Positions 2,105-20,721 of a stretch of 20,783 nt of DNA are shown here, in pieces. Below the pieces are notes generated by a model that was given only the letters and a program-made list of their open reading frames with translations, was not told the origin of the DNA and ran no database searches. The stretch covers positions 1 through 20,783 of the IMG/VR virus record IMGVR_UViG_3300030099_001526. One strand, given 5' to 3'. How positions within the stretch are numbered: the first letter of the stretch is position 1; every line of letters starts with the position of its first letter. A program made the translations under genes and the position numbers. Source of the DNA: a virus.

Positions 2105-2535
2105 TGTTTATAACAGAAGCAATATTATGTCTTGCACTTAATGTGTATCACGAAGCAAAAAATCAACCGTTCATAGGACAAGTGGCAGTTGCACAAGTGG
2201 TGATGAACAGAGTGTATGATCAAAGGTATCCTAACACTGTATGTGAGGTAGTAGAACAAGGACCAACATATTCATGGAAACCTGACTTTCCTATAAGAAA
2301 TCGTTGTCAATTTAGTTGGTATTGTGATGGTTTGTCAGATACACCTACAGAGAAAGATGCGTGGGATAATGCTATCATGGTGGCAAATATGGTGTACGAA
2401 CGTAATTTTGAAGATTTTGTAGAGGGGGCGACACATTACCATGCATATTATGTTACACCTGAGTGGGCAAGTGCTAAAACGTACATAACAAGAATAGAAG
2501 ATCACATATTTTACAGATGGGATATTGAGCAATGA
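2104..2535 (+). CDS. Cell wall hydrolase, SleB (Hydrolase_2) family
   Basis: This 143-aa protein resembles the catalytic domain of SleB/CwlJ-type peptidoglycan hydrolases. It shows the family pattern of an N-terminal helix with a conserved Glu (YHEA, E17), then GQVAVAQVVMNRV, and near the C-terminus the THYHAYYV..EWA block. It probably acts as the phage endolysin, cutting peptidoglycan at lysis. No signal peptide or membrane segment is evident, so a holin or another route would be needed to reach the wall. It starts one base inside the helicase stop, and its own TGA overlaps the exonuclease ATG (ATGA). A lysis gene between helicase and polymerase is unusual for the T7 type, where lysozyme is encoded apart. 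A different role at entry cannot be ruled out. Confidence 0.85.
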   Translation: MFITEAILCLALNVYHEAKNQPFIGQVAVAQVVMNRVYDQRYPNTVCEVVEQGPTYSWKPDFPIRNRCQFSWYCDGLSDTPTEKDAWDNAIMVANMVYERNFEDFVEGATHYHAYYVTPEWASAKTYITRIEDHIFYRWDIEQ

Positions 2536-3110
2536 TTTATATGACACTAGACGTAGAAACAACACACAAGGAGAAAATAAATGGTGGACACACTCCCTTA
2601 CCTTACTTCGGTAATAAACTCGTTAGCGTTGGCTATAAGTATATGGATAGCTTTACCTCTTACTTATTCTTTAATCATTCTACTCGGAAACCTGACTTCA
2701 AAGGCGATGAGATATTACAGGACGCATTGAACAATGTAGATGTTCTTATAGGACATAACATTAAGTTTGATATAACTTGGTTGCGTGATTGTGGGTTTGT
2801 GTACAATAATCATCTGTATGATACTATGGTTGCTGAATACATTCTTGCCAGCAGTAGACGTTGGAGTTTAGGTCTTGAGTCTGTAGCTGAACGTTATGGA
2901 GCGTTAAAAAAGAAAAGTCTTGTTGACGGATTTTTAAAAGATGGTAAAACATTTTATGATATACCTTACGACATCATCGAAGAGTATGGTCGATCAGATG
3001 TCGAAGCAACTGAACAGGTTGCATTGAAACAGTTAGAAGCCTTTGGCACAACATTTGAGGAGCTATTTGCTGATGAAGAAACTATTGCCAACTCTGCGTT
3101 TGTCTCTTGA
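2532..3110 (+). CDS. DNA polymerase 3'-5' exonuclease subunit (DnaQ/PolA-like)
   Basis: This 192-aa protein is the proofreading exonuclease domain of a family-A polymerase as a stand-alone polypeptide. All three exonuclease motifs are visible: Exo I D7-V-E9, Exo II GHNIKFD (N76, D80), and Exo III YGRSD (Y152, D156). These residues would bind the two catalytic metals, so the domain looks active. In related phages and in T7 this domain is the N-terminal part of the polymerase chain. Here it ends at a TGA 38 bases after the likely start of the polymerase gene, which lies in the +1 frame. It starts with ATGA overlapping the hydrolase stop. The alternatives to a true split are a sequencing indel or a frameshift that restores the fusion. 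Confidence 0.87.
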   Translation: MIYMTLDVETTHKEKINGGHTPLPYFGNKLVSVGYKYMDSFTSYLFFNHSTRKPDFKGDEILQDALNNVDVLIGHNIKFDITWLRDCGFVYNNHLYDTMVAEYILASSRRWSLGLESVAERYGALKKKSLVDGFLKDGKTFYDIPYDIIEEYGRSDVEATEQVALKQLEAFGTTFEELFADEETIANSAFVS

Positions 3111-4611
3111 TATGACAAATGTTCTTGCTAAGATAGAACATGCAGGAATAAAAATAAATTTAAATACTTTGGATGAGATACGCAATGAGTATGAACACGA
3201 GTTGACTACGATTGACAAACGTTTAAAACAAATAACAAATGATGTTATGGGTGACACACCAATCAATCTTAACAGTGCAGATGATAGATCTATGTTGTTC
3301 TATTCTCGTAAAGTACACAATAAAGATACATGGGTCAGAATATTTAACATAGGACACGAGATGCGTGGTGCAACTCGTAAAGTCAAGATGCGTAGTAGGA
3401 TGTCCAAGACTGCATTTGCGAAGAACATACGAAACAATACTGAAGTTGTTAGAAAGACAACAGGCTATCAGTGCAGTACGTGTGAGGGTGTTGGTCGAGT
3501 TAGATTTCGGTTGAAGAACGGAGAGTTGGGTAAAGCGAATAGATTATGCAAGCCATGCAATGCAACAGGTATGATATATGTTAAAAGTAAAGAAGTTGCA
3601 GGGTTGCGTATCTTGCCAAGAAATACAAAGGATGTTGCACAAGCAGGATTTAAAACAGACAAGACAACTCTTGAAGATATGTTACCATCGTTGAGTGGTG
3701 CTGCAAAAGAATTTGTAGAACTGTACGTTAGATATTCTGCCTTGCGTACATACCTTAGTACATTTGTAGAAGGAATGGAAAATAATGTTGATGAGAATAG
3801 TTTTATACATCCAGAGTTTATGCAGTGCATTACTGCTACAGGTCGTTTATCGTCAAGAAATCCGAACTTTCAGAACATGCCACGTGGATCTACGTTTCGT
3901 ATACGCAAGGTTGTGGAGAGCAGGTTTGAAGGTGGTTCGATCATTGAGGGAGACTACTCACAGTTGGAGTTTAGAGTTGCAGGGTTTTTGGCAAATGATT
4001 CGCAGATATATAAAGATGTAGAGGATGGTGTCGATGTACATGCATACACTGCATCTGTGATTGGTTGCGACAGACAGACTGCCAAAGCTGATACGTTCAA
4101 GCCATTGTATGGTGGAGTAACAGGAACACCAGACCAACAAAAATATTACAGGGCATTTAAAGAAAAGTATGCAGAAGTAACAGAGTGGCATGATAAGTTA
4201 CAACGAGAAGCAGTAGAGACAAAACAGATAATGTTGCCTTCTGGCCGCAGATATTGTTTTCCAGATACTTCATGGACAAAGTGGGGTACTGCAACGAACA
4301 GGACTGCCATATGTAATTACCCTGTACAAGGGTTTGCAACTGCAGATATACTACCTTGTTGTTTGGTTGAATTAGATAGAAGATTGCAACCATACAAGTC
4401 TCTTATCTGTAACACTGTACATGACTCAATTGTGGTTGATTGTCATCCTGATGAAGAGATACACGTTTTAGAAATTTTAAAAGTTTCTATGCTTGGTGTT
4501 GCATCAGATCTAGAAAAAAGATATAAAATCAAATACTTAATGCCTGTAGAAATAGAAATAAAAAAAGGTAACAATTGGCTTGACACACAAGTTGTTTATC
4601 CTGTAGAATAA
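3073..4611 (+). CDS. DNA polymerase, family A, with partial DnaJ-type zinc domain
   Basis: This 512-aa protein is the polymerase part of a Pol I-type replicative DNA polymerase. Motif A is GDYSQLEFR (293-301). Motif B is R334-x3-K338-x3-F342-x3-Y346-G, with Phe at the position equivalent to E. coli F762. Motif C is VHDS (449-452), Ser replacing the usual Glu. Between the NLNS segment (about 65-68) and the helix around YSALRTYLS lies an insert with CSTCEGVG (C134, C137) and CKPCNATG (C159, C162), resembling two of the four zinc repeats of DnaJ. ATG 3073 is preferred because GAGGAG ends ten bases before it. Upstream TTG codons in the same frame are weaker. The start overlaps the exonuclease gene by 38 bases. 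The HMO-2011 polymerase is remembered to have exonuclease, partial DnaJ and polymerase regions in one chain. Confidence 0.92.
   Translation: MKKLLPTLRLSLDMTNVLAKIEHAGIKINLNTLDEIRNEYEHELTTIDKRLKQITNDVMGDTPINLNSADDRSMLFYSRKVHNKDTWVRIFNIGHEMRGATRKVKMRSRMSKTAFAKNIRNNTEVVRKTTGYQCSTCEGVGRVRFRLKNGELGKANRLCKPCNATGMIYVKSKEVAGLRILPRNTKDVAQAGFKTDKTTLEDMLPSLSGAAKEFVELYVRYSALRTYLSTFVEGMENNVDENSFIHPEFMQCITATGRLSSRNPNFQNMPRGSTFRIRKVVESRFEGGSIIEGDYSQLEFRVAGFLANDSQIYKDVEDGVDVHAYTASVIGCDRQTAKADTFKPLYGGVTGTPDQQKYYRAFKEKYAEVTEWHDKLQREAVETKQIMLPSGRRYCFPDTSWTKWGTATNRTAICNYPVQGFATADILPCCLVELDRRLQPYKSLICNTVHDSIVVDCHPDEEIHVLEILKVSMLGVASDLEKRYKIKYLMPVEIEIKKGNNWLDTQVVYPVE
4580..4609 (+). promoter_or_regulatory. Sigma70-like promoter before the SSB-like gene
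   Basis: A perfect TTGACA (4580-4585) is separated by 18 bases from TAGAAT (4604-4609), a 5/6 -10 match. The elements overlap the last codons and stop of the polymerase gene. Transcription would begin near 4616 and give a leader of about 30 bases up to the strong Shine-Dalgarno at 4632-4637. It lies in one of the few real intergenic gaps of the + module, which supports independent, stronger expression of the downstream gene. Confidence 0.55.
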
Positions 4612-10516: not shown

Positions 10517-10547
10517 AGACGTTTTTTAGTAACGTCTACTTTTTTTT
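10517..10547 (+). terminator. Rho-independent terminator of the + strand module
   Basis: AGACGTT (10517-10523) and AACGTCT (10531-10537) form a 7-bp stem with a 7-base loop, followed after two bases by eight T (10540-10547) and further on by a second T run (10550-10556). It stands where the + strand and - strand modules converge and overlaps the last codons of the - strand 64-aa gene. In the - direction no T-tract follows the hairpin, so it should act mainly on + strand transcripts. Confidence 0.68.
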
Positions 10548-10730
10548 CATTTTTTTGACTGATGAGCCATACATCATTCCCATCATGCCCATTTTATTTT
10601 TTCGCATACCTGCGGCCATAGAATTACCCACTGTATTAGCCATGCCACCACCCATCATTTTTTTCATGGATGCTCCACCACCATACATCATTGGTTTTCT
10701 TATTGACGAACCATTACTGTATACTTTCAT
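10536..10730 (-). CDS. Methionine/glycine-rich small protein
   Basis: This 64-aa protein has about 15 Met and many Gly and Lys, in runs such as MMYGGG, MKKMMGGGM, MGMMGMMYG, and a Lys-rich end (KKMKKK). It is strongly basic and has no Cys. AAGGAG six bases before its ATG is a near-ideal ribosome binding site, and it follows the 1686-aa gene by 11 bases, so I take it as a real late gene. I know no function. Possible roles are a small virion component or a membrane- or DNA-associated peptide. The Met-rich sequence makes a similar-length open frame on the opposite strand, which has no ribosome binding site and is ignored. Confidence 0.7.
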   Translation of the reverse strand: MKVYSNGSSIRKPMMYGGGASMKKMMGGGMANTVGNSMAAGMRKNKMGMMGMMYGSSVKKMKKK

Positions 10731-10741
10731 TTGTTTCTCCT

Positions 10742-13700
10742 TTAGTTAGTTCCAGTTATTGAATTTAAATCCATAAACTCTTCTTGTGTAGGGTTTAGGA
10801 CATCTGATATAGCACCAAGCTGTTCTCTCTTATCTTCATCATAATCGTAGGATACTAAAAGATTTCGTATTAAATATGCTTCTAGTCTTGCAACAAATTG
10901 ACTTACTTCAGCAGGAGAAGGTCTTCGTGTGTTTTGTGCTATGGCAAGTGTAAATTTAGTATTTTCTTTATCACTTAACAAAAATTGAAATAGTTGTTGT
11001 TCATTATCTCTTAACATTCTAAAACCAGCATCAGCTAAAAGAAACTCTGTACCAACCATACCTCTAAACCAGTTAAAAGCTCTAGAAAGAACATTAGCAT
11101 CTGTATAGTCGTTTCTATAAATTGCTGGACTCATAGTGTTATCTCTATAACTTTTTTCTCTTGCAATCATACTCATTATAGATTTTAAACCATCAAAATG
11201 TTCATCATCTATTCCTAAATATTTAAAGTAAGATCTTACATTTGGATGTTGCATTAATTCTAATACTTCGGCTGGGTTTTGTAATACACGTATTTGAGTT
11301 TTAGCAGATTGCCCCGGCAACATTTGTTCAGGAAGTCTTTCTACTGTTACAGATTTCATACCTGCACGTTCCATTAAACCATTAAATAACATACTAGTGT
11401 AAACCATCTTTATAGTTTCAAGACTAGTATTTGGACTTTCTACTTGCAAGAGTTCAATATCATTTATAAATCTTTGCATATACTCTTGATCAATACCGTC
11501 TACAGTATTACGTAATCCAGAACCTATTCCATACCTTTTAATAAAGTCTTCTGGTTCAGCTAAATTAAAATTTAAAATTGTTTTGTTAACAAGTTCAGAA
11601 GTTTCAGAAAAAGTTCTTTCTGCTGTAGCTCTATCTTGTTTTGCAGCTCTGTAAAGTTTGTCGGCTTGATCTCTTACAATCTTACGAGCTTTTTCACTCT
11701 TTTTTAAGAAATGACCAAGATCAGCTTCTGTTTGTAACATATATCTATCTACAGAACTTAAATATTTAACACCGTCAGTGGTGTTAAATGATAAAGCTTC
11801 TTGCAATGCTTCTTTGTATGCAACACCATTATCAGGATCTGATAAAAATGATTGTCCTCCAAAAGAAGAAGAAGTATCAAGAGCATCACTATAAAATAAA
11901 TCTCCTTCTTGTTGATAGATTTTTTTAGATTGTAATAATTTTCCTAAATTATCTTTTAAATCTTTATGAAATGACATATATTTAAAAGTCATGGCAACAC
12001 TCATATCAGCAAGCTCTATACCTGCTTGACCTATCTTTGTTTTTGGATCTAACATGTAAGTTACGCTTCGTTCAAGCAAATCCCTGTAAGTGTATACTTC
12101 TCCGGGAACAGTGGCACTAAAGTCAATATCATCTCGCAAAACTCTATTACCAGCAAAATACCCTATGTTATCTGTTGCATCATCACTTGATATGTCTTTA
12201 GTAAGGGCTTTAGGTAAAACAGGAACACCATAAGCTTCTTCTATAGTTGTTCTAAAATCATCCATGTAACCTAATTTTGCATCAAAATCAGTTTGTTCCA
12301 TCATGTTATCAAACAAATTTTTTCCTGTAAGAATATTAAATGCTTTCTTCTTTGCATCAGCATCATACTCTCTACCGTTTATTATTTCAAGTTGTCTTAA
12401 AAGGGAATCTTTTTCTTTTCTCTTACCTACTAATGCACCGTACAGTATATTCATTTTCTGTACTTCTTTATACGCATTTGATTGCATACCATTTACTACT
12501 ACTTCTAATTCTGAACCCTTTTCTTTCATTAAAGATTCAATACTGTCAGACAATTCTGAATATTCTCTTGCCTTTTCTTTTATTGTTGATTTGTCGCTTT
12601 TCTTAAAATTTACAGCTTTTTCAGTTAGCTCTCTTTTTAAGTATACTAGATCGGCAAATTTAATTTGAACTTCAGATAAAGATTGATCGTTTATCATGCC
12701 CCCTCTTGACATGATATAATCATAGTAATGTATAGGAGCAGGATCAAATTTAACTTCACCTGTAGATTTATTAAAAGGAAAACCGTAGGCTTTACCCACA
12801 ATATTCTTTGAACTCTCTATCCATTCCAAATAATATATTGGAGCTGCATCCCCAAAGGTATTTACAAATGTTCTTTTTATAGCTTCAGAAGCAATATCGT
12901 TCATTACTTTGGTAAATTCTTTTCCTCTTGCAGTTTTGTTAAATTCACTTTTAGGTCTAAAGTTTGTTAATAAAACATCATTAATACCTATATCTTCAAA
13001 AGAAGCTTTTTTGTGGAGTTCAAGAAGAGACTTATAAACATCAGATGCTTCAACAGTTCCAAAACTATCAAGTGGTTCATATATTTGTTTTGCAATGTTT
13101 CGATAATAGTTATCAATAATTCCATAATGACTTTTTACAGATTTTCTTAAAACATTATAGTTTGGTATTTCCCCTTGTTTAGTTGAAAGAAGTTCAGTTG
13201 AATTTGCTAATCCTTTCAACGCTTCCTTGTGTATTGTGTGCATATTTAAAACAGTATCCATATTTTTATCAAAAAAATCACTTTCATATTCAATACCACG
13301 AGCTACTGTAGGATCACCTAAATCAACATTAGCTAATCTACTATCTAGCACTTCATCTAATTGAGCAGGGTCTAATGATAAAAAATGTTTAGGGTCTGAA
13401 AGCATTGAACTTATTTCTTGTTCAACCAACGCAGCTTGTTGTTTGTTTTCTTGCATTGCACCTGCAAATGCTACGTTTATATTACTTTCAAGTTCTAGTA
13501 TATTTCTTAAAGCTTCAGAACCTTCTCCTGTTAACTTATTATTTCTAGCAGCATTTATAAATGCAGATTTCATATCATCTAATACATTGGAATGTGCTAC
13601 AAGCAATTGATCTGCTTCACGCATAGCTTTTACTGCAGTATTAAATCTACTTGATGTAGACATAACATCACGTAAAGTTAATTTGCTTAATAGTCCTTTA

Positions 13701-15802
13701 GCAACACCGTGATACCAAGATATAGAACTTAACTGTGCATAAGATAATCGTAAATAATTTCTATATTGATCTACAGTAGGGGAATCTCGAACAACAGAAA
13801 GAGCAGTATCAATATCTCTATTTGCATCCTCTGCATTTTTCAATTGTAATTTTTGTGTATCATCATCTAATCTAACAAATAAATTTTTAAAAACTTTTCC
13901 TGCTCTATATTGTTCAACATCTGGGCTTCTCAATTCACCAAATGCATTAGGAATTTTTACATCCATTACATCTGGATCTAATAAAGGTTTTAGTCCTACT
14001 GCTCTCGTAAGTCCAGTGCCATCTAATACAGATTTTATTTGAAAAGATAAGTCAGCTCCAGTGGGGATAAATTTTTCTCCTCCTGCCACTATCCATCTAA
14101 AAGGATATTGTAATACTGCTGGAGATAAGTACATAATCGCACTAAGAAGATTTGCTCTTTCTAATTGTTCTGCTGTAACTTCTCCACTCGTCAAAGCATT
14201 AAAAGTAAACGATTGAGCAAGTGTTGGTAATAGTTCATCCCCCAATATATCTTGCAGTTGAGTAACAGGCATAGCATATCTATTTCCTTTAATCATACTA
14301 AAACCACTAGTTGATGCTTTTAAAAATGCATTTTCGGCTATATCTAATTCAGACAATGCTTGATTTCTTGCTGCAGTTGTTGTTGCATCGTTTACTTTTT
14401 TAATTGCATCATCAATGGCATTTTGATATTTGGGGTCCATATTTTTAATTATGTCATCATAAATATACTGACCCTGTTGTGCTTTTAATGTTTGTCTTGT
14501 TGTTTTAAAACTAAGTTTACCTAATAAAAATTTAAAGAACCCATCCCTTTTAATTTGATTAGCTTCCATCTCAGTAAATTTTACTGTACTGGTTGAGGAG
14601 TACGGATTTATACCATCAGCATTTTTTGGATATGTTTTTCTTTTTCTATCTTGATCTAAAAGAAATTTTACAGGAGATTTTGTACCAATTACTTGCCCCA
14701 TTGCTTTTCCAATTGTTGCAAAACCAACTCTTGTTCCTAAATTAAAACCTAAATCTTTTATATAATTTTCAATAAAAGTTAGTTCTGCCGAAGCAAAATT
14801 ATAAATTGCTCTTGCATCTCTCTCATCTAACATTAATTTTTTAGAGTTCTTTTTGTATTCTTCTTCTCCAAATTTCTTTATATATTCATCTTTTATGAAC
14901 GTATTTATTCTATCTGTACTAGTAGCTGCGATAGCACTATCTTGAAATCCATTCATATAGTTTTCAACATCTACTCTTCTAGCGTTTGCCTTTTCCTTAA
15001 AATATTGTGATGCAAGATCAAATACACCTTCTTCTCCATCTTTAGATTCATTAAAAGCTCTTCCAAGTGACTCTACATAATCCCCTGTAAGATTTCTAAT
15101 TATCTTTTGTAAAGTAAGCCCTCCACTTATTATATCTTTTGAATCATTTAAAAATTGCCTAAAAGTATCCCCTGTTGTAAATGATTCAGTAAGTATACTA
15201 AAAGCTTCTGGGCTTCTTTCTGCAATTTTTGTTCTTTCACCAAATTGAACTAATCTAGCTCTGTTCTCAGCTAATCGTCTTTCAGGAGTTTTTAACATAC
15301 CAAAAAACGTAGGCTTTACACCAAAAAAGTTTTTGTTTGCATATTCTGGTGCAACTTCACCTTCAGCAGTAACACCAAATGCTCTGTACTTAGGAACGTC
15401 TGCTTGTGCTGTTTGTTCTGCACTTTCTAAATCCTGCTTTAACATTTTGTAAGCATTAAATAAATTATTTTTTAAAACAGGAGGTAGTTCTTTATTTTCA
15501 GAGCTTAAAGACTCTACATATAATTTTGCCTTATCGACCGTCTGCTTGTTTATATTTTTAGGAGGTTCTGCACCCTCAAGCAACACTTGATTTAAAGACG
15601 GAACAAACGCTTTTTGTTGTCGCTTTTCAATGTCTTCGTCTATTGCTTTTTGTTGTTGTGCAAAAGTAAACCCTGCTTCTTTTGCAGGACCTGATAATTC
15701 CAATTGTTTACTATCTACACTTGTATCAGGAACGATTTGTTGATCTTCAACTTTTATAAGTTGTTCGTCTTCTTCTGTAGTGTTATCTAATTGTTCAGCC
15801 AT
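10742..15802 (-). CDS. Very large virion protein, candidate internal/ejection protein
   Basis: This 1686-aa protein is the largest in the window and has no family I recognise. It is mostly helical and charged, with an acidic N-terminus and no signal peptide. Two stretches are hydrophobic or amphipathic: about 351-373 (LGFNLGTRVGFATIG) and 551-575 (NLLSAIMYLSPAVL). An aromatic helix lies near the C-terminus (AFNWFRGMVGTEFLLADAG). I saw no lysozyme or transglycosylase motif. It follows the 776-aa gene with an 8-base gap, and AAGGA stands six bases before ATG 15802. Order and size resemble T7 gp15 (747 aa) and gp16 (1318 aa), which leave the capsid to build a channel across the envelope, so an ejection role is inferred. 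I find no cysteine in the whole chain. Confidence 0.82.
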   Translation of the reverse strand: MAEQLDNTTEEDEQLIKVEDQQIVPDTSVDSKQLELSGPAKEAGFTFAQQQKAIDEDIEKRQQKAFVPSLNQVLLEGAEPPKNINKQTVDKAKLYVESLSSENKELPPVLKNNLFNAYKMLKQDLESAEQTAQADVPKYRAFGVTAEGEVAPEYANKNFFGVKPTFFGMLKTPERRLAENRARLVQFGERTKIAERSPEAFSILTESFTTGDTFRQFLNDSKDIISGGLTLQKIIRNLTGDYVESLGRAFNESKDGEEGVFDLASQYFKEKANARRVDVENYMNGFQDSAIAATSTDRINTFIKDEYIKKFGEEEYKKNSKKLMLDERDARAIYNFASAELTFIENYIKDLGFNLGTRVGFATIGKAMGQVIGTKSPVKFLLDQDRKRKTYPKNADGINPYSSTSTVKFTEMEANQIKRDGFFKFLLGKLSFKTTRQTLKAQQGQYIYDDIIKNMDPKYQNAIDDAIKKVNDATTTAARNQALSELDIAENAFLKASTSGFSMIKGNRYAMPVTQLQDILGDELLPTLAQSFTFNALTSGEVTAEQLERANLLSAIMYLSPAVLQYPFRWIVAGGEKFIPTGADLSFQIKSVLDGTGLTRAVGLKPLLDPDVMDVKIPNAFGELRSPDVEQYRAGKVFKNLFVRLDDDTQKLQLKNAEDANRDIDTALSVVRDSPTVDQYRNYLRLSYAQLSSISWYHGVAKGLLSKLTLRDVMSTSSRFNTAVKAMREADQLLVAHSNVLDDMKSAFINAARNNKLTGEGSEALRNILELESNINVAFAGAMQENKQQAALVEQEISSMLSDPKHFLSLDPAQLDEVLDSRLANVDLGDPTVARGIEYESDFFDKNMDTVLNMHTIHKEALKGLANSTELLSTKQGEIPNYNVLRKSVKSHYGIIDNYYRNIAKQIYEPLDSFGTVEASDVYKSLLELHKKASFEDIGINDVLLTNFRPKSEFNKTARGKEFTKVMNDIASEAIKRTFVNTFGDAAPIYYLEWIESSKNIVGKAYGFPFNKSTGEVKFDPAPIHYYDYIMSRGGMINDQSLSEVQIKFADLVYLKRELTEKAVNFKKSDKSTIKEKAREYSELSDSIESLMKEKGSELEVVVNGMQSNAYKEVQKMNILYGALVGKRKEKDSLLRQLEIINGREYDADAKKKAFNILTGKNLFDNMMEQTDFDAKLGYMDDFRTTIEEAYGVPVLPKALTKDISSDDATDNIGYFAGNRVLRDDIDFSATVPGEVYTYRDLLERSVTYMLDPKTKIGQAGIELADMSVAMTFKYMSFHKDLKDNLGKLLQSKKIYQQEGDLFYSDALDTSSSFGGQSFLSDPDNGVAYKEALQEALSFNTTDGVKYLSSVDRYMLQTEADLGHFLKKSEKARKIVRDQADKLYRAAKQDRATAERTFSETSELVNKTILNFNLAEPEDFIKRYGIGSGLRNTVDGIDQEYMQRFINDIELLQVESPNTSLETIKMVYTSMLFNGLMERAGMKSVTVERLPEQMLPGQSAKTQIRVLQNPAEVLELMQHPNVRSYFKYLGIDDEHFDGLKSIMSMIAREKSYRDNTMSPAIYRNDYTDANVLSRAFNWFRGMVGTEFLLADAGFRMLRDNEQQLFQFLLSDKENTKFTLAIAQNTRRPSPAEVSQFVARLEAYLIRNLLVSYDYDEDKREQLGAISDVLNPTQEEFMDLNSITGTN

Positions 15803-15810
15803 AATTTTCC

Positions 15811-18141
15811 TTATTGATCTATTCGATTACCATTTTGATCGACTTGCACTGGTCCTTCACTTGTTTGTATTGTAATTATTTCTGGTGGTGTTTGCGTTGT
15901 ATCAGAAGGTGATGTCTGTGTAGCTGTTGACTTTACTGATGCAGAGGGTATATATGCAAGATTACTTGCGTTGTTATTATCAAAATATACATATAAATTA
16001 TTTGCCGCACTAAAAAGAGGAGATACTAATGTATTGTTAGTTTTATTAAAAACTTGATATACAGTTCGCTCTATTTGGTTTTCATCGGTAAATGTTAAAT
16101 CAGGTCTTGGTTTTAAACCTAAAGGACTACTAGTAGCTATTGACATATTTTCTACAACATACTTCTTATCCCTTACTGTCTCAGAATTTGTCGATGCCAT
16201 AATACGACTAAATGCTATAGCTCCAGATATTCTTTGAACATCAGCACGAGTAACATTACTCGGATCATAACCAGCAAGAATACTAAATCTTTGATACTTA
16301 CGAGATAATCGATCAATAGAAATTCCCAGCATACCTTCTACATATTCTGGGGATACAATATTTCCATCTCCAGCAAAAGCACTTAAAACGTTGTCTAAAT
16401 CTTTATCTGAAACTCTTCCTGATGGGTCAAACACTTTTGCAAGAGTATAAGCCAAATAAATTCTCAAAGCTGCAGCTTCACCATAAGCTTTTCTTCTATC
16501 ACCTGTTAGCGTGTTTTGATAGTCTTGTGCAGATTTTATTTCTTGTTGTATCCTTTCATAGCCTTTATCACGAAAACTATCGAATCCAAATTCTTCGTCT
16601 TCGCTACTAAATAAGTCCATTAAACTATCTATTTGACCAGTGCCATTTCCTACAAGATTTACAAATTTATTATCAATAAATCCTGCTAAACCTACTTTTA
16701 TTTTTTTACCTTTTACAAGTCTTAAATATTCTTTTGATAAATCCAAAGCTTCCTTTGCGGCACTAGCCATCTCAGATATTTTGTCAACACCTTCTTTTCC
16801 TGACAACAAAGTTATTTGTTTAATTATCTGACTATATTCTTTAGATATAGAATCAGTTTTAGAATATAACATTCCCCCTTCTTGATTTACATCTCTATTT
16901 ATTAAAAGACCTAAAGCTAACATAGCTTCTTCTGGTTGCATACCCTGCTCTATTGCGTCTAACATAGTAACACCAACAGCAGTTCTCATTGACGGTGTTA
17001 AACTAAAAGCACTTTGATGTAATTGTAATAAAGATTTTGCTTTAGGATTATCTTTGTATGGAATATCAGGTTGCATGCCCGGTAACGTTAAAATAGTTTG
17101 GGCTAATTTAAATATTCTATTATCTGATGTTACAAGTTCTGGATAAGCTGCAGCTAGTTGTTTTTCATTTGCAATTGGTCGAGAATCTGTAGAAGAATGT
17201 TCCATTAAAATACCCAACTGTCCTGTATCTTCAAAATTTACTTGTGTTTCTACTGTGCCATCTGGCTTAGTCTTTTGACCAACCATTGTAGGCTTTTGTC
17301 CATATATAGAACCAATTAAATCATACGTTGTATCTTCTTTCAAATTTGTAAAAAACTCTTGGTATGGTTTTTTATATTCTTCAGAACCTGTCAATCTACC
17401 TATTTGAGTCCACTCAATGTCTCTAAATTCGTGATTTGGATTTTCTGCTTTTAATTGTTGTTGACTTGAAAGATGTTTACTAGACGCACTTATCATTTGA
17501 TTTTCTAATGTTTGTGCAAATTCTATTTGTTCTTTCTTAGGTAACCTACTATATTTATCTCCATTTAATACAAGTGCATTTACAAAGTTGTTTCCGTTAG
17601 CATAATATTCTTCAAAAGTATTTGGATTATCCGTAAATCGCACTAAAAACTCATCATTAGTTCCCTTTCCAAAAACTCTGTAACCTTTGTATTGATCTGT
17701 GTTTGTTTCATTGTCAGCTTGATAAAGGGCTATTGCAGCTTGATACAAAGCTTCTTGACCTTTTGGTGTAGTTATATCATATTGACTAACATCAAAACTT
17801 TTATACAACTCAGGTTTCTTTTTTATCACGTCAAAAGCTAAGTCAAGATATTTATCTTTAATTTTATCATCAGTATTTTTATCTTTTACATAACTTAAAA
17901 CTGTCTGTAATCCAGCATCACTTGTCATTTGTTCATAACTCATATCAAGTTCTTTAAACATTTCTGGATTTTCAGTTATAACATCTTTTACAATACTTGA
18001 ATTAAAAGCTATCTTTTGAGCCTTTGCTTTTTGATCAGCTTCCTGTCTAAGTTTAGCTTGTTCTGCAGCCTGTTCCTGTTTTATTACTTCGCCTTTTAAA
18101 TACCCTCTAACAAGAGCTTGAAAATTTCTTCCTCCAGCCAT
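15811..18141 (-). CDS. Large virion protein, candidate internal/ejection protein
   Basis: This 776-aa protein is not one I recognise by family. Residues about 15-47 form a Lys/Gln/Ala-rich helix, likely a coiled coil. The long middle is helical. A segment around 575-610 (YLAYTLAKVFDPSGRVSDKD) looks like a conserved helix-turn block that I recall from other marine phage structural proteins. The last 50 residues are Thr/Ser/Pro/Gln-rich and probably disordered. No cysteine or transmembrane helix is seen. Its ATG shares one base with the stop of the 173-aa gene (TAATG), with AGGGAAG upstream. Size and position before the giant protein parallel T7 gp15. A virion role is well supported by context. 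The ejection role is inference. Confidence 0.82.
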   Translation of the reverse strand: MAGGRNFQALVRGYLKGEVIKQEQAAEQAKLRQEADQKAKAQKIAFNSSIVKDVITENPEMFKELDMSYEQMTSDAGLQTVLSYVKDKNTDDKIKDKYLDLAFDVIKKKPELYKSFDVSQYDITTPKGQEALYQAAIALYQADNETNTDQYKGYRVFGKGTNDEFLVRFTDNPNTFEEYYANGNNFVNALVLNGDKYSRLPKKEQIEFAQTLENQMISASSKHLSSQQQLKAENPNHEFRDIEWTQIGRLTGSEEYKKPYQEFFTNLKEDTTYDLIGSIYGQKPTMVGQKTKPDGTVETQVNFEDTGQLGILMEHSSTDSRPIANEKQLAAAYPELVTSDNRIFKLAQTILTLPGMQPDIPYKDNPKAKSLLQLHQSAFSLTPSMRTAVGVTMLDAIEQGMQPEEAMLALGLLINRDVNQEGGMLYSKTDSISKEYSQIIKQITLLSGKEGVDKISEMASAAKEALDLSKEYLRLVKGKKIKVGLAGFIDNKFVNLVGNGTGQIDSLMDLFSSEDEEFGFDSFRDKGYERIQQEIKSAQDYQNTLTGDRRKAYGEAAALRIYLAYTLAKVFDPSGRVSDKDLDNVLSAFAGDGNIVSPEYVEGMLGISIDRLSRKYQRFSILAGYDPSNVTRADVQRISGAIAFSRIMASTNSETVRDKKYVVENMSIATSSPLGLKPRPDLTFTDENQIERTVYQVFNKTNNTLVSPLFSAANNLYVYFDNNNASNLAYIPSASVKSTATQTSPSDTTQTPPEIITIQTSEGPVQVDQNGNRIDQ

Positions 18142-18662
18142 TACTTAACTTCCCTTTCTGCATTTAAAAAATTATCATCAAGTTCTTGAGGTTGTCCTCC
18201 TGTACGAATTTCTTCGTTTACTTTTTCTTTTATAAATTGAAACATTCTTGGGTTATTCTTTTTCATAATTTTTAACATGTGAGTATCGTCTATTTCGTCT
18301 TCATCTAATGGAATATCACTTTCAAAAAATCTGTAAGGTATTTCTTCCTCTTCAGCAATACTTGCTAAATACAACGCTAAAGAAGGTTTCATTATTAATG
18401 CTGTATCTAAAGAAAACTTGCCTGATTCAAAACCAGCGTATATAAAACCCTCAACAAGACTTTCAACAGATATACCTGCCATCAATGATTTTACAAGATT
18501 AGTTCGTGTTACTGGAGATTCTAATGAATTAATAGCTGCATCCATCGCCTTATTGGGATCAGCGTATTTGGGGGGATTGCCCCACGGATAATTTCTATTA
18601 TCCTCTGTAAGCGATATACCTGCAGGAGCAGGAGCTAACAAATCAAATTTACCTTGTTCCAT
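18141..18662 (-). CDS. Putative virion-associated protein
   Basis: This 173-aa acidic protein has an N-terminal pattern GISLT...YPWGNPPKYADPNKAM, then helices with LVKSLMAGISVESLVEGFIYAG and a hydrophobic IMKPSLALYLASIA, then an acidic tail. I recall similar small proteins with SLT, PWxxPPxY and LMxxG-type blocks in marine phage structural modules, but no experimentally defined function. It lies directly after the 138-aa gene (stop and start adjacent), with AGAGGGG in the end of that gene as likely ribosome binding site. It overlaps the 776-aa gene by one base. No cysteine, signal peptide or enzymatic motif is seen. Co-expression with the large virion genes suggests a structural or assembly role. 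Confidence 0.75.
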   Translation of the reverse strand: MEQGKFDLLAPAPAGISLTEDNRNYPWGNPPKYADPNKAMDAAINSLESPVTRTNLVKSLMAGISVESLVEGFIYAGFESGKFSLDTALIMKPSLALYLASIAEEEEIPYRFFESDIPLDEDEIDDTHMLKIMKKNNPRMFQFIKEKVNEEIRTGGQPQELDDNFLNAEREVK

Positions 18663-19079
18663 TTATATCTGTACCCCTCTTACTATACTTTGTTCAACTC
18701 CAATGTTTTTACTTTTCTTACGAGTTGATTTAGGTGTATTTGCATACCTATTAATTAATTGTAATAACTCATTATTTTTTGTGTTATTTACAAGAGATTT
18801 TATATTGTTTAACAACTGTGGATTTGTAAAAGGGTAACTTCTAAATTGTTTTAAATTTGCTGGGGCAGGAGAAGATTGATTTATAAGATTATCTGTTATA
18901 GTCATTTTAGGAATTTCTCTTCCTTCTTTTTCATCAGACAATGCTTTTACTGCTTTTCCTGCTGTTAAAAACCCAGTTTTTACAACATCCCCTACCGTAT
19001 CTTTACCTGTAAGATCCATAAAAAAATCAAATGGAAATTGGGCAAATGATTTTACTAATTTAAACTTATCTCTAATCAT
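18663..19079 (-). CDS. Hypothetical late protein
   Basis: This 138-aa basic protein is not one I recognise. The N-terminal third has amphipathic helical stretches with aromatics (KSFAQFPFDFFMDLTG). A linker follows (QSSPAPANLKQFRSYPF), then a helix (LLNNIKSLVNNTKNNELLQLINRY) and a Lys-rich C-terminus. Its ATG overlaps the TGA of the 470-aa gene (ATGA), so it is coupled to that virion gene. It might be a small internal or minor capsid protein, by context only. No cysteine is present. Confidence 0.72.
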   Translation of the reverse strand: MIRDKFKLVKSFAQFPFDFFMDLTGKDTVGDVVKTGFLTAGKAVKALSDEKEGREIPKMTITDNLINQSSPAPANLKQFRSYPFTNPQLLNNIKSLVNNTKNNELLQLINRYANTPKSTRKKSKNIGVEQSIVRGVQI

Positions 19080-20488
19080 GCGTTATCACCCCACAAACTT
19101 GCAAAAGTTCCTATCATTTCAATTAAATCTGTTTTTTCTTGCTCATTTAATAATTTTTGGTTATACGAAAACTCTAATGCCATAAGACCAATAGCGTGTT
19201 TTCTTCCCAAAGCATTTTCAACTTTTGAAAAATTAAAAGATGCGTTATCCCTATAATCTTGCCACAGTGCGTTTAAAGCTGATTGTTCAGCATTATATTC
19301 ATTTTGTACGTTTATTCTATTTGTTTCATTTTGAGTTGCAGTATTAGCCGTATTAACTTCTCTTCTCCATGTCACATTTGATTGATCAATAGCAAATTTA
19401 GCAGATGCATTAAATTTTTCTCTAGAGTCTTGTATTTGTGCATTAAGTTGTAGCATAGCATTTTCTTCTGAAATATTAAACTGTCTCATTGCTGCAATTC
19501 TGTTAGCGTTGGCCGCTTCAACTTGTGATCCTAATTGAGCAAAATATTCTTCTACTTGTATTTGATTTTTTGCATTAAACTGTCTTGTAGCATTTTCAGA
19601 CGCTGCATCTCTAAATGCAGATTGAACCATTGCTTGATAACTTAATGAATTAGCTTTTTGTTGGTTGTCTAAATTTTTAGTATCAATAGCTAAAAAATTT
19701 CTAGCATTATGCACAGCCGCTGTTAATCGTGCATTTAAATTTGCTGTGTCCATTGCCGCCACAGTTGCCGCATTTCTCAAAGCTGTTTGTTGTCTATTAC
19801 TTAAATTTTGTAATTGTATGCGTTGGTACGCTTGTGCATCTGTTGTTGCAATGGCGACTCCAGATTCCATAACAGCTTGTATCATAGCAGACCCTGCCAT
19901 AGATGATGCTCCCATTCCTCTTGAGTTCATTATTGCTGTTATTTTTCGTACTTGGGGAGAAGCCCACGGTGGTAATGGTTTACCTTCTTCAAAGCTACTC
20001 ATTAGATCAGATAACTGATAACGTACTGTAGCTTTTGGATCTAATTCTTCTGTTGCGGCTTCAGCCAATGCCCCTTCTGATAACTTTCCCTGAACATTAT
20101 TTATAACATACGAAGGACCTTTTGAAAAGGCGGCTGATGCATCTCCTAAATCTCCTACTTTTTGTGTGCCAATGTCTAAAGGTAAATCGGCAGGAGCTTT
20201 TGGTACATTAACATTAAGTCCAGAAGTATCTGCCGTGTTTGCAGTTACATTAGATGTGCCTGATAAAAGTTTTCCAGAATCACCTAAATTTGTTCCTGCT
20301 GCGTTTGGATCTATTTTAGTTGAAGTTACAAGGGGTACTGTCTGTGTTCCAGCTAATATGTCTGAACTTGTTTGTTTTGGATCTGCGAATGATGATTTAC
20401 TTTGGTTAAACTGAGCTTCAGTCATAGGAGCAGTACCCTGTTCATTCATAGCAGCTACATAATCAGCATAAGTTGCATATTGTTCCAT
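19076..20488 (-). CDS. Helical virion protein with 11-residue Asn repeats
   Basis: This 470-aa protein has a Ser/Thr/Gly-rich, probably flexible N-terminal 130 residues, then a conserved-looking block (LPPWASPQV, IMNSRGMGASSMAGSAM). A long Ala/Gln/Asn-rich helix follows from about 200 to 415. In that helix Asn recurs every 11 residues: 228, 239, 250, 261, 272, 305, 327, 338, 349, 360, 371, 382 and 393. The LPPWA and RGMGASSMA blocks resemble structural proteins I recall from marine phages. I take it as a virion protein, by position perhaps like T7 gp14, which forms part of the ejection channel. It begins two bases after the 76-aa gene stop and has a weak ribosome binding site. No cysteine or enzymatic motif is seen. 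Confidence 0.8.
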   Translation of the reverse strand: MEQYATYADYVAAMNEQGTAPMTEAQFNQSKSSFADPKQTSSDILAGTQTVPLVTSTKIDPNAAGTNLGDSGKLLSGTSNVTANTADTSGLNVNVPKAPADLPLDIGTQKVGDLGDASAAFSKGPSYVINNVQGKLSEGALAEAATEELDPKATVRYQLSDLMSSFEEGKPLPPWASPQVRKITAIMNSRGMGASSMAGSAMIQAVMESGVAIATTDAQAYQRIQLQNLSNRQQTALRNAATVAAMDTANLNARLTAAVHNARNFLAIDTKNLDNQQKANSLSYQAMVQSAFRDAASENATRQFNAKNQIQVEEYFAQLGSQVEAANANRIAAMRQFNISEENAMLQLNAQIQDSREKFNASAKFAIDQSNVTWRREVNTANTATQNETNRINVQNEYNAEQSALNALWQDYRDNASFNFSKVENALGRKHAIGLMALEFSYNQKLLNEQEKTDLIEMIGTFASLWGDNA

Positions 20489-20490
20489 AA

Positions 20491-20721
20491 TTATTTACCT
20501 ATCAGTATCTTATCTAGTTTATCTTCTAATCTTTGCAACGCATCCATTACAGTATGCATGTCTTCTTTAACGTCATCACGCTTTGCATATTCTTCTCTTG
20601 TTTTATTTAACAGTATGTCAAGCCTTTTTATCTCCATGAACATACCACGAAAGACCCATATAGCAGGAGCTATTACGACTGTAAGTATTCCATTCCAAAA
20701 TAGTATAGGGTTTATTTCCAT
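20491..20721 (-). CDS. Small membrane protein with coiled coil, holin or spanin candidate
   Basis: This 76-aa protein has one N-terminal membrane segment (about residues 6-24, ILFWNGILTVVIAPAIWVF), followed by a charged helix (about 28-74, with RLDILLNKTREE and ALQRLEDKLDKIL) that reads as a coiled coil. One transmembrane helix plus a coiled coil fits an inner-membrane spanin (Rz-like) or a small holin, and the window has a SleB-type hydrolase that would need such a partner. A virion or membrane-anchor role is also possible. It lies two bases before the 470-aa gene and just after the end of another gene. No outer-membrane spanin partner is visible nearby. No cysteine is present. Confidence 0.7.
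   Translation of the reverse strand: MEINPILFWNGILTVVIAPAIWVFRGMFMEIKRLDILLNKTREEYAKRDDVKEDMHTVMDALQRLEDKLDKILIGK

Follow-up and report, generated by a model that had tools for sequence, protein, structure and literature searches.

A conserved asparagine ladder of 11-residue period in an unannotated protein family of HMO-2011-type phages, and its possible role in DNA ejection

The H protein of phage phiX174 is a 170 Å decameric tube whose helices begin with the hendecads QKELTKMQLDN, QKEIAEMQNET and QKEIAGIQSAT, and whose lumen is lined by Asn, Gln and Arg side chains that affect passage of the genome (PMC7354561). In phage T7, gp14 forms a hexameric helical channel, and gp15-type ejection proteins have mostly been matched by size and synteny, not by sequence (PMC8954989). 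Proteins gp20-24 of phage SU10 are ejection proteins (PMC9509320) and Sf6 gp12 is a decamer channel (PMC4755594). Undecads are also present in the trimeric adhesin NadA, together with an Asn layer that binds chloride (PMC6191539). The HMO-2011-type phages have been described as a dominant group with a broad distribution in the ocean (PMC9038755); nothing was found in the literature on how they move their DNA across the envelope.

The window analysed here is a 20,783-nt stretch of viral DNA (IMG/VR record IMGVR_UViG_3300030099_001526, from position 1). It encodes a DnaB-type helicase, a family A polymerase and a B12-dependent RNR, with the same structural block as the HMO-2011 group; the capsid, portal and terminase genes lie outside it. 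Judged from this gene content, the window most likely represents part of the genome of an HMO-2011-type phage. An exonuclease-like ORF (2532-3110) and the family A polymerase ORF (3043-4611, both plus strand) overlap in different frames, and the protein text seems continuous across the overlap, possibly reflecting a frameshift, either natural or an assembly error, that splits one polymerase gene. The polymerase ORF contains an inserted Cys-rich, zinc-finger-like stretch (CxxCxGxG ... CxxCxxxG), which resembles the DnaJ-type insert that the HMO-2011 polymerase is said to carry.

The gene of interest, at 19076-20488 on the minus strand, encodes a protein of 470 amino acids and is a homologue of HMO-2011 phage1322_25 (ADW08438), CHOED_013, phiM6_25, CRP-3 gp24 and others. 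Between residues 228 and 393 (19310-19807, minus strand) Asn occupies 13 of 16 positions spaced exactly 11 apart, at residues 228, 239, 250, 261, 272, 305, 327, 338, 349, 360, 371, 382 and 393. The remaining slots are S283, D294 and F316, and the next Asn in register is at residue 415. This recount agreed with the sequence-only reading, as did the statement that the following residue is mostly small or hydrophobic: Leu, Ala, Val or Ile comes directly after 14 of the 16 slots, the exceptions being Y284 and T383. The period was compared with 2000 shuffles of residues 180-470, scored over 16-slot windows in all phases at periods 3-18, and every shuffle gave 10 or fewer. Asn at other periods between 2 and 24 in the same protein reached a top score of 8, at period 22, and 8 was also the maximum outside the ladder ORF when every residue was scored at periods 3-40 in all ORFs of the window that reach 200 aa. 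The period-11 Asn repeat was thus matched neither by the shuffles nor by any other ORF. Pairs of Asn were over-represented at lags of 3, 11, 19, 22 and 33 residues. No 33-bp tandem repeat was detectable in the DNA of the gene, indicating that the repeat units are old and diverged, and ruling out recent DNA slippage as the source of the ladder. Searches of Pfam and PHROGs with the ladder protein gave no credible match, and searches of PDB sequences using both the protein and the family profile gave no match.

The structure of the ladder protein was predicted with AlphaFold2 using 60 relatives. Helices were predicted at residues 196-291 (19616-19903), 297-398 (19295-19600) and 402-469 (19082-19285, all minus strand), mostly with a pLDDT of 70-85; the pTM of 0.31 leaves the overall fold and the packing of the helices unsettled by the model. 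A low-confidence break at residues 292-301 coincides with the interruption of the ladder. The predicted break between the first two helices (residues 292-296; 19601-19615, minus strand) includes the conserved D294, and the three ladder gaps are grouped around it, at 283-316. Helix 1 carries a 22-residue alternation of NLxNxQQxxLx and NAxxxAxxxxx, also visible in expanded relatives, and helix 2 contains hendecads of the type NAxxxNxxxQF. The family hydrophobicity of helix 2 has a periodicity peak at 98.2 degrees per residue, corresponding to 11/3, and helix 1 gives a weaker peak at 96.5 degrees. A long coiled coil of 11-residue units with one continuous stripe of Asn had been proposed from the sequence; predicted helicity, conservation, changes of length by whole hendecads and the helix 2 period support the 11-residue helical part of this proposal, but the single uninterrupted stripe is replaced in the model by two helices with a conserved break. 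Foldseek comparison of the model with the PDB gave no match, and the two best matches in BFVD are apparently members of the same family by their lengths (1021 aa, as CRP-9, and 619 aa, as CRP-3).

When the repeat was plotted on a helical wheel, the phase-0 Asn lay beside the hydrophobic strip and not at its centre. The most hydrophobic phases were 7 and 10, and phase 1 was mostly Ala or Leu; the Gln-rich phases 2 and 6 lay opposite this strip, and charged, variable residues occupied phases 4 and 8. Such a pattern would fit bundles or barrels, whose helices make contacts through two faces, and does not by itself prove that the Asn are buried or luminal. The ladder helices are weakly amphipathic, and a well-packed hydrophobic core is not obvious. 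An 11-residue helical period is typical of amphipathic helices that lie on membranes, as in perilipin and synuclein, and the 11/3 hydrophobic period of helix 2 would fit a helix that coats the host membrane during entry. This reading appears very improbable, since the hydrophobic strip is weak, Asn and Gln make up approximately 20-30% of the ladder helices and their net charge is near zero, unlike membrane-binding 11-mers.

Relatives of the ladder protein were identified by tblastn in 27 isolate phage genome records, with a best E of 6e-42. These include Puniceispirillum phage HMO-2011 and phages of Pelagibacter, Roseobacter, Sinorhizobium, Rhizobium, Aeromonas, Vibrio and Pseudoalteromonas, and the genes are either unannotated or annotated as hypothetical (one as 'huntingtin'). 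Approximately 100 further loci, some of them overlapping, were found in IMG/VR. Similarity to the HMO-2011 gp25-type proteins was significant over the repeat and over the conserved domain that precedes it (residues 150-195; 19904-20041, minus strand), which contains invariant P173, A176, G191 and S195 and the motif P-x-W-A ... RG-[LM]-[GS]-A-S-S. These proteins are approximately 26-40% identical to the ladder protein and share its gene neighbourhood and its Asn ladder. They range from approximately 440 to 1180 aa with a varying number of hendecads, and some carry an additional LysM or S74 domain or a long extension at the N-terminus. On this similarity, the ladder gene is a member of an unannotated family found in HMO-2011-type podoviruses and related terrestrial and gammaproteobacterial phages.

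Alignment of 110 distinct relatives gave a mean identity of 88% at the ladder Asn, 66% at other Asn in the stretch and 46% at the remaining residues; for the 14 most distant relatives the values were 74, 49 and 31%. The ladder Asn, which lie at period 11 in register with those of the relatives, therefore do not drift freely among homologues. Phase 0 is on average 75% Asn, and its entropy (0.76 bits over the 110 relatives) is below that of the ten other phases; residues 228, 250, 272, 305, 327 and 371 are each Asn in at least 96%. The gap residues are also kept, as Asp at 294 in 97 and Phe or Tyr at 316 in 98 of the 110 sequences, and Glu, Lys or Asp occurs in some relatives at slots 239, 283, 382 and 393. 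The weakest ladders were those of phiM6 and the Rhizobium phages (7 of 12 positions), CRP-603 (7 of 13) and CRP-738 (8 of 13). Aeromonas phages with 51-53% GC (MQM1 and phage 1233) retain the ladder at 10 of 11 positions, ruling out an artefact of AT-biased base composition.

The ladder might also have arisen as a by-product when an 11-mer or 22-mer was duplicated in tandem long ago, in which case the Asn would have no structural role. Repeat arrays grow and shrink by the unit, and Ala, Gln and Asn are abundant in the region. Against such an origin, phase 0 has remained Asn in genomes of low and high GC although the DNA copies are fully diverged, its entropy is the lowest of all phases, and conservation extends to the ladder gaps. 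In its strong form this explanation is refuted by the position-specific conservation, and overall it was given very little weight.

Relative to the query, the gap lengths found in the relatives inside the repeat were -22, -11, +22, +33, +44, +66, +132 and +176. Each of these is a multiple of 11, and the only indel of another length, present in four sequences, removes 2 residues. An aligner can be biased by repeats, and the spacing of the motifs P-x-W-A and N-x-x-W-[RA]-[RQ], which lie on either side of the variable region, was therefore measured without alignment; in 86 of 91 relatives it was congruent to that of the query modulo 11, which counters alignment bias as the source of the gap lengths. 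A single event is probably behind many of the +66 cases, so that the counts are not independent and the distinct lengths are the better evidence. Two indel hotspots were observed. At codon 235 (19784-19786, minus strand) relatives gain 22, 66, 132 or 176 residues or lose 22, and at codon 344 (19457-19459, minus strand) they gain 22, 33 or 44, with a loss of 11 nearby. The inserted units keep the ladder going, for example in approximately 16 of 19 units in locus L040, and as seen in the 19-unit first arm of ctYwJ313. Between anchors 228 and 371 the relatives contain about 12 to 29 hendecads, equivalent to a helix of about 20 to 48 nm at approximately 16.5 Å per hendecad. The conservation of the ladder, its independence of GC content, the multiple-of-11 indels and the inserts that continue the ladder together argue from the sequences that the 11-residue register is under real constraint.

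The changes of length also bear on the way in which the two ladder helices could be paired. The predicted helices are nearly equal, at 96 and 102 residues, and lie around a conserved break, as would be expected of an intramolecular antiparallel hairpin in which Asn rungs zip the arms together, giving an adaptor or scaffold and not a tube. However, the arms change length one at a time (+66 or +176 in arm 1 only), unequally (+132 with +22) or in opposite directions (-22 in arm 1, +22 in arm 2). A matched hairpin would not tolerate such changes, and the hairpin was consequently considered improbable.

The ladder gene is followed by small genes, including one for a 138-aa protein (18663-19079) that forms part of the proposed cassette and one for a conserved 173-aa protein (18141-18662), which has a homologue in 110 loci holding the ladder gene. 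Two very large proteins come next, of 776 aa (15811-18141) and 1686 aa (10742-15802, all minus strand), in positions comparable to those of T7 gp15 and gp16 by synteny and size only. This is the order of podovirus internal proteins, and the match to a podovirus ejection block with two large internal proteins lies in order and size only. The ladder protein resembles the T7 gp14/gp15/gp16 system in gene order, with a small protein before two large ones, and in its likely role, but shows no sequence or profile similarity to gp14, gp15 or gp16. AlphaFold2 gave a poor model of the 776-aa protein (pLDDT 52), with no useful fold match. In Slicky01 the last gene of the block matches a PHROG annotated 'virion structural protein' (2e-18).

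In Salmonella phage 7-11 (Moazamivirus, Grimontviridae), gp20, a DNA ejection protein of PHROG 4287, is likewise encoded by the first gene of a block placed ahead of larger proteins, and the SU10 gp20-24 set is arranged similarly. The 7-11 protein has a G-x-x-G-S-S-like motif and an S74 ending like that of some ladder relatives. In contrast to the ladder protein it has no Asn ladder, the profile comparison was not significant with either 7-11 gp20 (P = 0.009) or the DB2 gp18 family, and its neighbours have no detectable homology to the 173-aa gene; nor was homology of the 173-aa protein found with cassette genes of 7-11, DB2 or AH02. The injection proteins Sf6 gp12 and P22 gp20 share with the ladder protein a predicted helical stem forming a channel, but Sf6 gp12 has only a short predicted coiled coil, at residues 223-293 (PMC4755594), and does not match the ladder protein.

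Three further observations were made beside the block. Directly upstream of the ladder gene, a 76-aa protein (20491-20721, minus strand) has by eye a membrane helix at its N-terminus and a tail that resembles a coiled coil, and looks holin- or spanin-like; it matched PHROG 12220 (E 4.5e-6) and PHROG 462 (E 2e-5). Just after the 1686-aa gene lies a 64-aa ORF rich in Met, Gly and Lys (10536-10730, minus strand; MMYGGG, KKMMGGGM, MGMMGMMYG), which gave no credible family match in Pfam or PHROGs. In HTVC115P a gene annotated as a toxin-activating lysine-acyltransferase (L037:3314-3763) is inserted directly after the ladder gene.

The Peptidase_S74 chaperone domain that some relatives append after the C-terminal helix is absent from the ladder protein itself (Pfam). 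It was found at the C-terminus of three tested isolate relatives, from CRP-3, CRP-235 and CRP-738 (L034, L026 and L033), the CRP-235 protein also having an N-terminal LysM domain, and was not found in the related phiM6 protein. This distribution suggests that S74 has been gained or lost among these four phages on a protein of the ejection type. The PHROG annotations to which the S74-containing relatives are linked, mostly through the S74 domain, are 'virion structural protein' and 'DNA ejection protein'. In Octadecabacter DB virus 2 and in Pseudomonas phage AH02 (L124 and L125), a short protein encoded next to cell wall hydrolase or P22-like injection genes likewise ends in an S74-like domain.

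The S74 domain is mainly familiar from trimeric fibres and speaks for a fibre as much as for an ejection protein. The main rival is a trimeric tail fibre, needle or stalk, in which a parallel three-stranded hendecad coiled coil would have Asn core layers and would be matured by the S74 chaperone in some relatives. Asn layers at the d position of coiled coils bind halides. The S74 domains of CRP-3, CRP-235 and CRP-738 would fit such a fibre, as would a PHROG of long tail fibres that was weakly matched (again through S74), the putative tail fibre genes upstream of the homologue in HMO-2011, and the undecads and chloride-binding Asn layer of NadA (PMC6191539). Trimeric stalks of the NadA type resemble the ladder in their 11-residue coiled-coil units with polar Asn in or near the core; they differ in that the units are isolated within a heptad stalk, in belonging to a surface adhesin and in sharing no homology. 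The query and most relatives lack an S74 domain or receptor-binding head, the predicted helical region reaches almost to the C-terminus, the ladder gene sits with the two large proteins and not among tail fibre genes, and S74 also ends a protein named DNA ejection protein, that of phage 7-11. A fibre or stalk consequently appears unlikely, though it deserves more weight than the hairpin.

On balance, it appears somewhat more probable than not that the ladder protein is a structural, probably ejected ('pilot') protein that forms a parallel hendecad bundle or barrel and helps DNA through the envelope. A channel or core protein of the ejection machine had been suggested by the sequence-only reading, and this role is favoured because of the gene position and the S74 and LysM domains of relatives, although comparison with phiX174 H, T7 gp14/15/16 and 7-11 gp20 gave no significant homology. 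The description of the protein as a virion protein in that reading was an assumption. The literature on the group yielded no virion proteomics for any family member. After the small conserved domain, the C-terminal half would form long helices in an 11/3 register, near-straight or slightly right-handed. Copies would most likely assemble in parallel and in register, giving a helical bundle or barrel in which the phase-0 Asn may form rungs at the helix-helix seams, with the Gln of phases 2 and 6 on a polar face. After adsorption the protein would contribute to, or brace, a conduit by which DNA crosses the envelope, and the relatives may lengthen or shorten this conduit one hendecad at a time, within a range of about 12 to 29 units.

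By analogy, such a mechanism would be like that of the phiX174 H tube, with a polar lumen. Both proteins have a long helix with 11-residue repeats and one conserved amide residue per unit, placed beside a hydrophobic residue (MQ or IQ in H, FN or LN in the ladder protein), and pilot function is proposed for the ladder protein as well. The H protein differs in having only three hendecads before heptads and in belonging to an ssDNA phage, and its oligomer has been solved, while the ladder protein is known from sequence and a model; hhalign gave a probability of 0.3%, providing no indication of homology. A more specific and distinctly tentative proposal is that the protein forms a trans-envelope tube measured in whole hendecads, each contributing one ring of Asn, with approximately 12-29 rings tuned to the host envelope, as an independent dsDNA-phage counterpart of H.

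The Asn ladder is real, and is stronger than the sequence alone had indicated. It belongs to an uncharacterised but widespread phage protein family, and the kind of structure is already known and not categorically new. With its Asn ladder and its quantised hendecads, a gene that is conserved but unannotated acquires a structural role that can be tested, and the natural length variants of 12 to 29 units provide a series in which to ask whether the length of a conduit or rod is matched to the host.
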